This document shows positions 9,117 to 17,659 of a stretch of 64,000 bases of DNA, one piece after another. Source of the DNA: Stereum hirsutum FP-91666 SS1 (taxonomy: Eukaryota; Basidiomycota; Agaricomycetes; Russulales; Stereaceae); NCBI RefSeq assembly GCF_000264905.1, contig NW_006763135.1:2145428-2209427 (forward strand), written 5' to 3'. A program made the position numbers and the translations under genes. The first letter of the stretch is position 1; each line of letters begins with the position of its first letter. The notes below the pieces were generated by a model. That model ran no database searches. It was not told the DNA's origin and saw only the letters and a program-made list of their open reading frames with translations.

Positions 9117-12100
9117 TCACTGGAAAGAAAACCTCGTACGATCTAACTTCCCTACAGGTCGACCCGGCGCACCACTATTCGAAGTTGTCGAAGGCGGCAA
9201 CGGGAATTCGGATAAGGCGCTCATTGACAGTCGCGAAACAGGCTCGTTAGCTGGCGTCGAACCTAAACACGAAAGATCAGAAACATTGCTTTGCATTACA
9301 GCGTTGAAGAAGACAGAACTAACCAGACGGAAGGTCAAACATCCTCGCTTTCTCCAACACAAGACTCTCCCTCCTCCGTGGCGCCAATCTCGGCGATTCC
9401 ACGCCCGACTCAGACAGGTCCGATCCAGTTCTTTGACCATGCGATCTCGAGCGATGCAGAACAGGAGGATCCTCATTCACCGGCGAGAGTAGCGAGTTCT
9501 GAGCCACGGAGGGTGGCTGCCGTGCAGACGACACCCTGCGTAGCGAGCTCGTCGTCTGTACTCGAATATCGCTCATCCGTCGCGTGGGCTGGACCATCTC
9601 CCAAGCCGGCTCAGCAGGAGGGCCACTGGCTTGAGATACTGGCCTACGAGAGGGTGAAGCGGGTGAAGCTATTCGGGATGGAAGTGGAGGAAGAGCGAAT
9701 TGGGGTGGAGGTCCTGATGAAGGTGGGAGGGGAGGAAGTCCTGCGGAGACGAACGCGGGCATAGGAGGAACAGGTGGGAGGCCAGCTGGTCGCTTCATGG
9801 CAGCACGGAGTGGCTCTGCCGATGTCTTGGGATATGTCCTTGAACCTGTTGGAGAATTCCTTTTCGATCCTTCGGGTGAACTAGGCCCAACGTCCACGAA
9901 AGAAACCGAACGAAGGCTCGGGGTCCTGAACGCTTCGTTGTGAAGTTGCCGGTGGGTCTTCTTAGCGTACACGGGCATCGTCAAGAACAAATGACCAGTC
10001 TTGGCGATTTCATTGTGCAGCTGCCGATGGGTCTTTCTTGACGGAGCATGATGTTCTTTGAGACCGTTGGAGCCAGATACCTCCACACGCGGGACTGTGT
10101 GGGCTTTCTGGGCTGGTGTACGTGGGACAGTGAGTGGAGCCTGAGTGTCATGAACGCCGACCGAAGGCCAAAGCTCGAAGTGAGGGTAGACGGGAGGATC
10201 TGTAGGTCGACGATTAGTATTTAGAGCTCCTATGAGTCTGATGATTACGGACATAGTTGAATAGCAGGATACCGCGCAGGAAGCTGAACAGAGAGCAAAA
10301 GTGGTGTCTCCGACTTCGGAGTCGACCCTGAGCGATAAATGTCAAAGTGTGGATAGACGGCGGGATCTGGAAAAATAGTGGGCATTGGATACGTCGAACG
10401 AAAGCCACTTCGAAGACGAGGAAACGTACAGATATCGAAGTGAGGATAGCAAACTCGCAGCGTGCTCTGAACCACACGCCACGAGCCAGATATCGAACCG
10501 TCGCAGACTTCACCAGCGTAGATCTCGAAATGAGGATACGCAGCGGGGTCTACGTCAAGATAGAAGTTAGGAATGCTCAATGAAATGCTGATCAGGAGAA
10601 CGCACAGATCGCAAAGCGGGGGTACATCGCGGGAAGCGTGACACGACCGTTGTCCTGACGGGACAGACTGCCATCGCATACTTCACCAGCATAGATCTCG
10701 AAGTATGGATACACAGCAGGGTCTGGGACACAATAAAGATGAGCACACCTCGCAAATCAATGCATATGAAGGATGGACTCACAGAGAGCAAAGCGGGGAT
10801 ACGTCGCGGGAAGAGTGGTGACATTGTGATCAAGCTCAGACAAACGACCATCACAGCATTCGCCAGCATAAATTTCGAAGTAGGGATAGACCGCGGGATC
10901 TACCACCAAAACGCTCAATATATGCTCGAGGATCATCAATGAAGGAGGACGTACAGATGTTGAAGTGAGGATATGTCGAAGGAAGCACGCTACGACCAAG
11001 GTTCACAGCCCGAAGGCTGGATTGTGGTACAGGGTGCGTTCCACCAGGGATGGGAGCGTAGAGCGTAATCGCAGGGTACACCGAAGGGTCTAAAGATGCA
11101 TTGTGAGCATGTAAGTTCAGCGGTACGTAAGATCCATAAATGATGGACGCACAGAGGTCAAAGCAGGGGTATGCGGGGCGCACACGCACGCTGCGTTGAG
11201 GGTAGTACTCGGCATCATCGAACCGGCGTCCAGGCGGGTCTAACAGTACTAATGTCAGTCGAGGAAACCTGTTCGGCGAGACAAAGCGATTGCGTACATA
11301 TCTCAAGCTGGGGAGTCGTCGTTCGGCTAGGGGAAGACTTCTTCATGCCGCTGCGAGCCACAGTAGGATACGGTGTAACATAAGGATAGGCGGCAGGATC
11401 TGAAACCTCCAGTCAGCAACCGGTCTTGAGCGTAAATTATAGTAGAGGGCACATACAGATTTCCATCATCGGGTACTGCGCCGGAAGCTTCACGTTCACT
11501 GGGGAGGTGACATCGAGGCCCATGCGTGGATAGATGTTGTACACGTTCTCGGGATATCCAGCAGGGTCTGCGATTGGTATGTGAGTAAGAGGAATCGTTT
11601 TGGAATGAAAAGTTTGACCAACGTACAAATGTCGAAGTGAGGGTAAGCAGACCGGAGCTGCGTCGAAACAGATACTTTCGACTGCGGCGCCGACGAGGTA
11701 GATGGAGGTCTTACACCAACCGCGGGGTAGATCACAATGTCCGGGTACGCAAATGAAGGCATATTGAACTCGAAGACGTCTCCCACAGAGACGGATGGAT
11801 AGATGACGAGGTGAGGATAGACGCCTGGATCTATAACAAAGAAAAGAGTCAGTAATTGCGCATGAGCATTTTCAGATGTGAGTAATACGAACAGATATTG
11901 AACGCGGGATATCTGGGACGAAGTTGTATTGAGACCGGTTCGAGAGGGTACTGCGCTAGGATGAGATGACCAGGATAGATCTCGAAGTTCGGGTAGACCG
12001 TCGGATCTGTGTTACAAGGTATATAAGAAAGGACTGAAAAGATGAAGCAGATATGGTACATACAGATGTCGAGAGAAGGATACTGTCTCGGTAGCGTGAT

Positions 12101-14821
12101 AGACATCGACGAGTGGTGACTGTCATCGAACGTCGTGACATGTCCTGGATATATCTCAAAGTTCGGGTACGCGGTGCGATCTAGAGATACAATAATTCAG
12201 GGATTGTCGTCACAGATAACGACGAGGAACTCACAGATCGCGAAGTTCGGGTATTCAACACTCAAGATGACAGACTGAAGGTCGTGCAAGGAATACTCAT
12301 TCGGCGAAACCTCGACGCTCATATCCATATGAGAGGCAGCCGTAGCTAAACAACATTATATGAGAAATGTTGTTCATAGGGTTATGAAGAGAAGGGTATA
12401 GCTCACAAGGTGCAGATGTGGAAGGTGTTTCTGCATCAGCTTTGGGTGCCCTCGCAGGAGAGCGGAGGTTGAAAAAGGGGTGACTATCATTACCTTAGAG
12501 AAACGAGCGTCAGTGACGCTATCGACGAACACACCGAAACGAGAGTACTTACCAGATTTTAAAGATCTACCGGCGGAAGGACTCTTCGGACGCGAAGAGA
12601 AACTCTTCATGCTCATCACTTTAGGTACGGCCAATAAAGACACTGCTGCAGCTGACGCAACATCATTATTGACAGCAACGGTCTGTCCCTCGTAATGAGG
12701 GGCACCGAGCTGCCAGGCAGCGGTCTGGACTTGTGGCTCTTCGACCACACGTTCGATCTCAAGCGAGCGTGTCGGGGGCGGCGTGGCGCGTCTTCGCGTC
12801 GACTCTTCCCCGCTCGTCCCGGAGGATGTAGATATCCTAACGACGGGAGGCGGTGGTTGAGGACGTTCCAACGGCCATACATGCGGCCAGGCGACTTCTG
12901 CGCTCGGTCTGAAGTACGGGGAGACAATTCCGGAGGGTCCTAAAGGAGGCATATTCGCGTCAAACGCACGGTGACCGGCATCAGGGGTCGGGATGTGTTC
13001 TGGCATGAAAGGCGACGGCGGGTAGGACGACGGAGCGCCCCAAGAGGTCGCCGTCGAGGGTGTCACCGGCCGACTCCATCCACCACGCTCGCCCAGATCG
13101 GGAGAGAGTTGAGCGTGGTGATTGGCGTTTACATTCAGATGCGCAGGCGACGGTGGGTAGGATGGTGGTCCCCACGACGTCGCAGTCGACGGAGTAACGG
13201 GTCGACTCCAGTCGGCGCGCTCGCCAAGATCGAGAGAGGGAGCGCGATGATCTGGGTGAGAATACGCAGGAGATGCGGGCCAAGACGACGGACCCCAAGA
13301 AGTGGCCGTCGACGGAGTGGCGGGTCGACTCGACATGGCCCTGTATGCAATATCGACCGACGGAGGTCGGGATATGCTCAAGGGCGACGGAGGGTAATCC
13401 AGCGGCGGACCCCAACTAGTTGCGGTAGAAGGGGTGGGCGGAACGTCCTCTAACATCCGCAAAGCGATGTCGGGCGACGGGAGGCGAGAGACAAATGAGT
13501 ACAGGGACTCATAGTCGTCATCGGGGCCGAATGAGGTGGCGTAGGAGGGGCTCAGGAGAACCGAGCCCTCCATGCGCCGATCGAGGTGCACAGACGGTAC
13601 GCGCGACCAAGAAACGGGTGAATCGAGGTCATCGTGGTCGGGAGGTCCCAGGGACGAGACCGACCAGGCATAGTCATCGAGGTTGAGAGGGCGCTCACCA
13701 TCACCTTCGACAGTAGAAACAGAAGGTGTATCGACTAACACTACGGCATTGGGCATGTGGACTGGGTCGAGGCTGATTTGGCCATTGGCAGCCAAAGGTG
13801 TGGGCGCAACGGAAGAGCTTGCACGCCAGGACTTGACACGGGATCGCAAAGGAGTGGTTGGAGGCTCCTCTTCTTGCACGATGGGTGGAAGAGCATTTTC
13901 AGAAGGCGGAACTGTAGCTGAAATAGCTGAGGCAGACTCCAAGCGGTCCAACAGTGACAACTTCCTAGGGACATGGCGCTGAATGGCTGTTCGCGTCTGC
14001 TGCGGCACATACGCCGACTCTTCATCCCCGAGAAGGTCATCGGGGTGCGTGGTTTTGCTTTCGTCGCGCCAGTGGGAGAGCGAAGGCGCAATAGAAGCCG
14101 TGACGTCATGGCTTGTTCTACGAGAGGATGCCAGCCACGCGTCATACCAGCGCGCTTTGTCGAGGTCAATGTCAAACTCAATCCGACCGCAGACGGGCAA
14201 CTGCTGAATCTGGAGCACAGGCGAGCGAGCCTCGAAGAGGTGATTCCACAGAATGGGCCAAGTCTCATCAGAGATGCGTGGGATCATGGAGAGGTTATTC
14301 TCAGGCATTCCAAGATAAAGGCAAAGTCCCGTTGTGCTCGGGAAATTGAACTCGCGAGCGATGACGGTCAATTGAGCGTACATCTGGAAGTCAATTAGAA
14401 AAGTAATGAGAGACTACTGGGATGAACTTACTGTCGGAAACAACGGCAACAAAACACCTTGGGAGAGTCGACCCGGGGGTCCGGAAGACAAGGTATGCCC
14501 GAGCTGACCGTGCTCTCTGGCTATCGAGGCTGGTGGAGTGACGATCACCAACCATTTCGACTGTGGACGTGGCCCAGCGCGCTCGCGAGACTCGCGAAGA
14601 CCTGTGTTGTGGTACGAGAGAGTAGAAACGCGGCGAGGAAGTGGAGGCTGAGACGGAGGGGTATCGTAGTCTGCGGGAGGGGCATGGGATGCAGGATATT
14701 GAGCTGTCGACGCTGACTCAAAGAAGTTGAGGTCGGTATCTGGAGGCGTCGGGATCTGAGCGCTGCGGGGGAGATCGTACGGGGAAGGTTTGTGAAAGAG
14801 GGAGGTAGTGAGGTGGGACAT
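9117..14821 (-). CDS. Large protein with N-terminal fungal domain and symmetric exons encoding tandem YP-x-F-x-I-Y repeats
   Basis: About 1592 residues, 17 exons: 14821..14432, 14383..12553, 12493..12407, 12345..12235, 12180..12064, 12006..11893, 11830..11627, 11567..11457, 11399..11298, 11239..11153, 11089..10955, 10899..10783, 10722..10606, 10549..10430, 10366..10253, 10199..9324, 9262..9117. Every junction keeps frame. Residues ~105-200 form a compact domain split by the first intron (PPGRLSQGVLLPLFPT; ARWYDAWL) that I recognise only as conserved in fungi. Next is a disordered stretch with four copies of TPSTATSWG. Residues ~800-1265 contain about 22 copies of a motif like YPHFDIYP, laid out so that each intron falls after the first base of the same Tyr codon. 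The C-terminus is Pro-rich and basic, with THRQLHNE twice. No signal peptide, membrane span or catalytic motif was seen. Function unknown. Confidence 0.85.
10253..12180 (-). repeat. Eleven tandem symmetric (phase 1-1) repeat exons
   Basis: Eleven internal exons of the YP-repeat gene, each a multiple of three bases long (87, 102, 111, 114, 114, 117, 117, 117, 120, 135, 204) and bounded by phase-1 introns of 53-63 bases. Most begin with a YP-x-x-YP unit and end with a second YP unit; the 204-base exon has three. Exons at 10783-10899, 10606-10722 and 10430-10549 are the most alike, sharing FEIYAGE and CDG, and look like the newest duplicates. Confidence 0.85.
13010..13450 (-). repeat. Coding tandem repeat around TPSTATSWG
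   Basis: Inside exon 2 of the YP-repeat gene, four imperfect units share RP-x-TPSTATSWGP followed by a Pro/Ser-rich spacer and, in three of them, a D-x-x-x-R element. The DNA copies are similar but not identical, so the repeat is protein-level and moderately old. Confidence 0.75.
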
Positions 14822-15366: not shown

Positions 15367-17659
15367 TTACAGCTGTTTTGAAATAATATACGACTGAGCA
15401 CTCCTCGTCTCAGCCTCTATCTTCGCAATCGCTACATCAAACAGAACCAGTACATCATCGTACGTCATCTTCACCGAAAGTCGAATATTCTGATGCTCGA
15501 CCAAATCAACAAACCCCACCAAAAGCTCACGCATCGTCCCCGACACGTATTTCCGTACAACCTCTTCCACCGGGGAAATAATCGCAAAATCCATATCGAA
15601 AAACATGAACGGGGCCATCGCAGTCCGGGAATTATGCACACTTCTGAGCGTCGAGTGGCCAAATGCGTCCTGGATGATCTCGAGCCAGTCTTGCTGGTCA
15701 TCCAGGGACAAGTCCTGATCTCGCAGGACCAATGGGTGGATGTGCTTCATGATGGCGTAAGCAGTGACCCATATGATGGACTCAAGGTCATGGTGAATGC
15801 CGTGCGGTGGAATCTTGACCTTGGTCTTTCCTTGTCGCATCGACCAGGCCAGGAGCTCGATTGCCATAAACTGAGTTGTTCCCTATATTGACGAGTACGG
15901 AGCGAGTGAGCGTAGAGTCACTAGGAATGACGAGGCCGGACGTGATAGCGCACACTCACGGCTATGGTGGTTGCGTGATGAACTGTGCTAGGCTTTGTCG
16001 GTGATGCAAGTTCAGTATTGCACTCCACGGTAGACGTATTATCCAAACGAGCAAGTTCCAAGTCGCAAAGAAAACCTTCCCCGTCAGGCGGTGGAGAAGT
16101 AGACTTGTTGAGAAGGATCTAATACAACGCAGTCAATAAACCTGTAGAGGGGTAACTATACCCACATGACAAGCAATGCCAGCGCACATTACCGGCAGAA
16201 ATATCGCAGTGCAAAATTCCCTGTTTCGTCAAAAACTGATGAGCTAGAAGTTAGCCAGGTCGAAGTAAGTAGTAGTTGATAGGTAGAGAGAATGATATCC
16301 TGCGTACCGAGGGTGGCAGCCCGCAAGGCTTTGAGAAGCTGCAGCTCGGACTCGTAGTCCCATAGTGGTTGGCCGACTGATTCCAAGAGAAGCCGATGCA
16401 GATAGTGTTCGACACCGCGTTCATCGGGCTCGTATCCTCGAAGATTGTACACCGTGATGGGTTTGTCGTCGTTAGAAACCGGAAAGAGAACGTCTCTCCC
16501 ATCGAAAAACTTCGCAAGGCCTGGATGATCTCCTTTCACCGATCTGTATATATATGACTCCGGTGTCCTTCGCTGAGTATGCCACGCATTCTTTAGGATG
16601 AAGATATCGCCAGAAGGTTGTCCGCTCTTCGAGTCGACCTGTTGAACGGCCCATACGCTAGTCCGTCGGCCGGTATAAGGGACAGAAGCCCAATACGGTG
16701 CGCCGACGGTCTGCCAGAGACGAGTGTCATTGCCACCGAGGGAGAGTCGATAGACGGGAACCTTGCTTTCGGAATCGTCGATAACCTGCACAGTTGGATC
16801 ATGTCCTATGCCTTCCTCCGATAGGACGCAAGTCACACTTCGGATGACTTTGATAAACGTGCGCATGCCGTTGTTGTCGACCTTCCAGCTGTCCGTGTCC
16901 CACAGGTATGTCTCTGGAGAGAGGGAGACGCCGTCGCAATCGAAGATGCCAGCATGGAATACGTTTCCAGAAATCATCAGACCGATGGAGAAGAGGTTGA
17001 ATGGACGTGCGGCCATATGGATGCGAGCGTAGTTGACCGACTGGTAGAGAATCTTCGAGATGCTATCGTCGTGGGTACCTGTAGTATCTTCCTCGTAGTT
17101 GGTGTCTAAGTGGCCAAATACGTCGCTCAAGGAGGCTAGGCAATCAGGACGATTGAGGCCAGAGAGTGTTGCTCTCGGTGAAATAATCGAGAAGTCGGGT
17201 ATCAGTGTAGGGTAATCGAAGTCAAACACAGTCTTATTGCCGGCCAACTGTCTCTCGTCAAGGATCTGGCGAGGGAGAGGAAGATTGGGAATGGGCGGTA
17301 CACTAGATAGATCCTGGAAGTCGCGTATGTAGTTCATGATGTGACGCTACAGGGACAATCGTATAGTTCGTAAGCATAAGTGCAGAATTCAGGAGACAGT
17401 ATTTTCGGCTCACCCAAGGCTCGTACATCTCGCTTTTGCATCGTATGCCGTTTCGAATGGAGTCATTCCCGATCTTCATAAGTGTTCGGATGTGCTCTTC
17501 GTTGTCTCGCTCGAAGTTCTCCATGCACGCATCGACGAAGGAGTCTGCTACGTCCTGGATGCGGAGACGCTCGAGGACTCTGCGGTCATTATACCAGACT
17601 TTGTCGACGAGGTTGCGTTTCACCGCCTTTTCGCTAGTATTGGTTGCGCGTTCGTCCAT
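15367..17659 (-). CDS. FunK1 fungal-type protein kinase
   Basis: About 671 residues from exons 17659..17414, 17346..16308, 16243..16188, 16118..15960 and 15882..15367. FunK1 kinases are a divergent eukaryotic-kinase family greatly expanded in Agaricomycetes, with substrates unknown. Visible signatures are the catalytic loop LHCDISAGN (His ~440, Asp ~442, Asn ~447), split from the rest by introns, the metal-binding DLELA (~466) replacing DFG, and GTTQFMAIELLAW (~501), the usual FunK1 activation/P+1 block. The more common form of the catalytic loop is HRDIS; here Cys replaces Arg, which removes the classic RD arginine but not the catalytic Asp. The fourth donor is placed after Asn-447 because only this gives the continuous AGNILLNK. 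It is divergently paired with CSN4. The gene looks intact. Confidence 0.9.

Follow-up and report, generated by a model that had tools for sequence, protein, structure and literature searches.

Arrays of symmetric repeat exons are already known from animals, where short symmetric exons encode the repeats of extended proteins such as titin (PEVK/PPAK), elastin and collagen. They are also known from ciliates: leucine-rich-repeat (LRR) genes of Tetrahymena contain arrays of 90-bp exons, which are attributed to clonal exon expansion (PMC6564038). Here we describe a gene of the fungus Stereum hirsutum that combines this known gene organisation with an unnamed repeat. It lies in a 64-kb window, meaning the whole stretch of DNA that was analysed, and as predicted it is a clean and old fungal exon array built around a Tyr-Pro motif whose two halves meet at a splice junction. 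On balance, we lean towards a reading in which tandem exon duplication gave rise to a docking region, extended and multivalent, in an intracellular scaffold, with all exons normally included in the mRNA.

Gene model

The gene is located on the minus strand and consists of 16 or 17 exons connected by in-frame GT-AG joints, running from 14821 to either 9319 or 9117. The joints were picked by hand and the model is predicted from genomic sequence only. In its 16-exon form, the gene starts with an ATG at 14821, stops at 9319 and encodes a protein of 1545 aa. The 17-exon form contains an additional 61-nt phase-1 intron (9323-9263), stops at 9117 and encodes 1592 aa; this extra intron near the end of the gene is likely real.

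Exon 1 (14432..14821) carries the start codon. Exon 2 (12553..14383) possibly begins with a compact N-terminal part (MYAQLTVIAREFNFPS...) and is otherwise mostly a long Ser/Pro-rich stretch. A different, second repeat is located in this exon (~13040-13445, minus strand), where TPSTATSWG occurs four times, each copy being followed by Pro/Ser-rich sequence. Exon 3 (12407..12493) and exon 4 (12235..12345) then lead into the array, the 3' end of exon 4 encoding the first half-unit, YPNFAI|Y. On the far side of the array, exon 16 (9324..10199) encodes the last half-unit, YPPVYPHFELW, and the proline-rich tail of the protein. The nonapeptide KTHRQLHNE is found twice in this exon (~9934-9960 and 10009-10035, minus strand). 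Exon 16 continues to the stop at 9319 when intron 16 is left unspliced; a possible exon 17 (9117..9262) follows the 61-nt intron in the other form, the two ends being alternative models.

A chain of symmetric exons and a module built across their junctions

Exons 5-15 form the array proper (12180-10253, minus strand), the same interval that a preliminary description of this DNA had given. Specifically, they comprise exon 5 (12064..12180, 117 nt), exon 6 (11893..12006, 114 nt), exon 7 (11627..11830, 204 nt), exon 8 (11457..11567, 111 nt), exon 9 (11298..11399, 102 nt), exon 10 (11153..11239, 87 nt), exon 11 (10955..11089, 135 nt), exon 12 (10783..10899, 117 nt), exon 13 (10606..10722, 117 nt), exon 14 (10430..10549, 120 nt) and exon 15 (10253..10366, 114 nt). 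All 11 lengths are divisible by three, and six of the 11 exons are 38-40 codons long. The twelve introns that flank these exons, from intron 4 (12181..12234) to intron 15 (10200..10252), are GT-AG introns of 53-63 nt and are in phase 1 without exception, so that every array exon is in phase 1 at both ends. In all twelve cases, the intron cuts the Tyr codon that closes the first motif half as T|AY. Twelve introns share this position because the opening half-unit comes from exon 4 and the closing one from exon 16. Twelve phase-1 introns in a row would be expected by chance about twice in a million (random phases, one third each), a figure that leaves the shared position uncounted. The array is thus modular and symmetric, with phase-1 introns that all split the same codon, as the preliminary description had it.

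The junctions are, furthermore, distinctive at the level of DNA. A junction pattern ([AC]T[ACT]T|GTNNG[TC], then AG|A[CT] followed by CC or CG, with an intron of 49 to 69 nt), composed once the joints were already known, gives 13 matches on both strands of the window, 12 of which are introns 4-15; in the shuffled region it gives a mean of 0.012 and a maximum of 1 (500 mononucleotide shuffles). At the protein level, the strict motif YP-x-[FILVMY]-x-[ILV]-[YW] occurs 21 times in the 482-aa array, compared with a mean of 0.061 and a maximum of 1 in 2000 shuffles, and YP pairs number 42, compared with a shuffled mean of 7.6 and a maximum of 19. Of the array residues, 14% are Pro and 11% are Tyr. 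Exons 8, 9 and 10 contain four degenerate copies (YPENVYNIY, YPYVTPY, TPQLEIY and RFDDAEYY): the first motif is degenerate in exons 8 and 10 and both motifs in exon 9, where the intron position is nevertheless retained. The earlier estimate of about 22 motif copies compares with 21 strict copies plus four degenerate ones. The 21 strict copies and the alignments establish homology among the array exons, exons 9 and 10 being degenerate. Given this degeneracy and the variable linkers, the exons are not as freely interchangeable as had been proposed.

Exons and modules are offset from each other, conservation being highest around the intron. In each array exon, a variable linker separates the second half of a unit from the first half of the following one, and the module that is assembled across a junction reads approximately L-P-x-x-YP-x-F-x-I|Y-P-x-V-YP-x-F-x-I-Y. 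Twelve junctions carry it, three in a partly degenerate form, and its copies are linked by variable spacers. An alignment of 11 junction units has five invariant columns (Y, P, Y, Y, P); the internal exon-7 unit and the degenerate exon 9/exon 10 junction were set aside from it. Exon 7 contains three strict motif copies, one of them internal, and a partial module copy whose first half (YPDIVIYPAVGV) runs on uninterrupted; it possibly represents two exons that were fused through loss of an intron. Since the exons share one phase, have lengths divisible by three and each carry motif halves, motif number could change by gain or loss of whole exons.

An extended docking region or a closed fold

No 19-residue stretch of the protein exceeds a Kyte-Doolittle mean of 1.4, and given the lack of a strongly hydrophobic stretch the protein is probably intracellular. 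In the model that we favour, each module would serve as an extended docking site or Tyr/Pro 'sticker', and the repetition of such sites within an intracellular scaffold would act through avidity. Exon 7 was modelled with AlphaFold2 from an alignment to the ten other exons of the array (pLDDT 63, pTM 0.16). This alignment consists of exons of this gene alone, and the model, which neither shows nor excludes a fold, would at best agree with an extended region. The preliminary proposal of a binding or assembly repeat rather than a solenoid gains some weight from the variable spacing and from this low-confidence model, both of which favour it weakly.

Alternatively, the array might adopt a compact or closed, propeller-like repeat fold with ~40 residues per unit, in which the junctions supply paired strands. 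The six exons of 38-40 codons and the alternating hydrophobic residues that the alignments reveal in the core of the repeat would suit such an arrangement. However, unit length varies from 87 to 135 nt, with one unit of 204 nt, the sequences in the PDB give no match at E up to 10, and the low-confidence exon-7 model is weak evidence in the same direction, which together make a closed fold unlikely.

Outside the array, the start of exon 2 (14087-14383, minus strand, MYAQLTVIAREFNFPSTTGLCLYL...) may encode a compact domain for which Pfam has no name. A single-sequence model of this N-terminal part contains mixed strands and helices at low confidence (pLDDT 56), and its best hit in a fold search of the PDB (E 1.0, probability 0.08) was treated as meaningless.

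Exon symmetry and splicing

Removal of single exons in silico keeps the frame for all 11 array exons, in agreement with the earlier statement that any exon could be skipped without a frame break. Seven of these 11 removals bring two strict halves together in the rejoined unit, whereas a degenerate half is brought in when exon 7, 8, 9 or 10 is taken out. In addition, introns 5 (12063-12007), 10 (11152-11090) and 14 (10429-10367) have lengths divisible by three and contain no in-frame stop, so that their retention would add residues without truncation and leave the frame open. These properties would permit a mechanism in which regulated skipping yields proteins with differing numbers of double motifs. 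Frame neutrality is, however, no evidence of skipping, because it follows anyway when a phase-1 exon is duplicated in tandem, and duplication by itself predicts the symmetry. The array introns, moreover, fall with their 53-63 nt in a size range that is usually recognised across the intron. In Schizophyllum commune, a junction-based analysis counted 1,527 exon skipping events inside coding regions, whereas in the transcript-based analysis of the same report skipping makes up 1% of coding-region events and intron retention leads (PMC5034255). The earlier idea that alternative splicing might vary the repeat number is not supported, skipping being a minor class of coding-region events in that fungus, and we consider regulated skipping quite unlikely here. 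Under the favoured duplication model, the mRNA would normally include all array exons.

Relatives of the repeat and candidate ligands

Database searches agree with the previous remark that the repeat could not be matched to a named domain. Pfam gives no family for the 1545-aa protein at E up to 10 (filters remove most matches above 0.1), the prokaryote library NCBIfam gives no match for four pieces of the protein, and the sequences in the PDB yield none. Within its own 46-Mb genome, both the whole protein (E up to 0.001) and a 332-aa array piece (E up to 10) match this locus only, among the best candidates scored. A loose pattern search of the genome was uninformative, with 2834 and 2728 matches versus 2822 and 2730 in the reversed control, and a scan of the window with Rfam at gathering scores gave no match. 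Among the titles and abstract starts of open-licence papers, none was found on such a fungal repeat-exon gene, on the array peptides or on this repeat.

Two candidate identities were rejected. A Sin3-binding STB6-like protein, which we took to be a possible identity of the array protein, has no Pfam match to support it, and no open-licence paper was found in its favour. As for a viral relative, a query with the exon-2 frame, extended beyond the end of the exon, hit a single pattern, which stayed unconfirmed, in a collection that is not aimed at fungi.

As the searched libraries contain no named family for the repeat, it may be the mark of a scaffold protein not described before. A bolder extension, which we regard as fairly unlikely, would make the locus the representative of an undescribed fungal repeat family, with the module being made at the splice junction and the cell or the lineage setting valency via exon number.

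The surroundings are those of fungal DNA, as had been supposed. Eight of ten neighbouring gene pieces match domains (Pkinase_fungal, VID27, aspartyl protease, DIS3L2/RNB, DUF829, PCI and protein kinase) that agree with such an origin, Pkinase_fungal and VID27 in particular, and perhaps with a mushroom-forming fungus; Pkinase_fungal is expanded in mushroom-forming fungi. Two Pkinase_fungal pieces are located directly upstream of the gene (15367-15882 and 16189-17346, minus strand), the first of them barely over the cut-off.

The Tyr-Pro cores furthermore raise the question of whether YP-x-Phi words could be ligands of the V domains of the Bro1/ALIX family (PalA/Rim20-like), in which case the protein would be a platform for ESCRT or pH signalling. 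YPXL/I is reportedly a ligand of PalA and ALIX and is likewise a short Tyr-Pro-x-hydrophobic motif, and the same genome has four matches to ALIX_LYPXL_bnd, three of them over the cut-off, in two places (C2, C6). V-domain proteins are, however, expected in any fungus, and these matches consequently do not discriminate. The words themselves also tend to speak against this assignment: the fourth place is L or I in five of the 33 and something else in 28 (15 F, 11 V and 2 M), so that Phe or Val predominates (26/33), and the array consists of long, ordered double units, unlike the PalA/ALIX ligands. We hold the V-domain interpretation to be quite unlikely.

Origin and age of the array

The distribution of introns over the motif copies bears on how the array arose. 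When the 21 strict copies were sorted by hand according to their protein neighbours, with the introns already seen, an intron was present in 11 of 12 first halves versus none of nine second halves (Fisher p 3e-5, hand-computed). Eight of the nine intronless second halves likewise close with a Tyr codon in a similar context, and the intron is still present at the degenerate exon 9/exon 10 junction. The intron is thus tied to the unit and not to the local sequence, which favours duplication of an intron-bearing unit. The ATHT|AY or CTHT|AY context that the 11 strict intron sites have in common would suit a history in which introns were instead inserted one by one into pre-existing repeats at a common sequence. 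A like context is, however, found in second halves, and none of these contains an intron, so that such a history is very improbable. In the duplication model, an intron-bearing repeat unit would have been copied in tandem to give the chain of symmetric phase-1 exons, and the module number would evolve as whole exons undergo unequal crossing over.

Exons 12, 13 and 14 resemble each other most closely (identities 0.74, 0.67 and 0.56, the amino-acid identity of exons 12 and 13 being 0.74). Along the array as a whole, identity shows no clear fall with distance (Spearman -0.18, permutation p 0.11), and resemblance between introns is weak, with a best p of 0.014 among 66 pairs, uncorrected; an earlier, cruder test (60 shuffles) had four pairs above z 2.5, reaching at most 3.7. 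Given the lack of a clear distance trend and the weak intron resemblance, the trace of tandem duplication, neighbouring copies that are more alike, is seen for exons 12-14, and the duplication history can be followed no further than these.

Synonymous divergence bears on the age of the copies. All pairs of the 21 motifs have a mean pS of 0.86 and a mean pN of 0.22, the latter being depressed because the motifs were picked by their protein pattern. Exons 12 and 13 differ over their whole length at a pS of 0.68 and a pN of 0.18. In their first 14 codons the residues are identical (pN 0) while eight of nine synonymous sites have changed (pS 0.89), and in the linker pS is 0.75 and pN 0.39. Synonymous change is uneven and the numbers are small, the last nine codons having a pS of only 0.29 and a pN of 0.10. 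Even in the closest pair silent changes are numerous and the first motif is unchanged, so that the copies are not recent and the protein motif has been kept; these comparisons point to an array of old copies whose motif is under purifying selection. A recent tandem repeat of DNA was rejected on two grounds: none of nine Tandem Repeats Finder rows falls within 9117-14821, and the closest pair, exons 12 and 13, already differs at the overall synonymous level given above.

Comparison with known exon arrays

With the repeat exons of titin (PEVK/PPAK), elastin and collagen, the locus shares short symmetric exons that code for the repeats of a probably extended protein. Those proteins are, however, animal and extracellular or sarcomeric, whereas the repeat described here is fungal and based on Tyr-Pro. 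A fungal array with introns of 53-63 nt offers a tractable case in which exon symmetry that serves splicing might be told apart from symmetry that is a scar of duplication. The Tetrahymena LRR arrays resemble this locus in having tandem homologous exons of lengths divisible by three, a single intron phase and shared junction residues (PMC6564038). They differ in that their exons measure exactly 90 bp, are in phase 2 and encode LRRs, whereas the exons here measure 87-204 nt, are in phase 1 and have no Pfam match. Furthermore, the ciliate arrays amount to tens of thousands of exons in ten species and are partly recent, whereas the fungal array was found at one locus and its copies are old.
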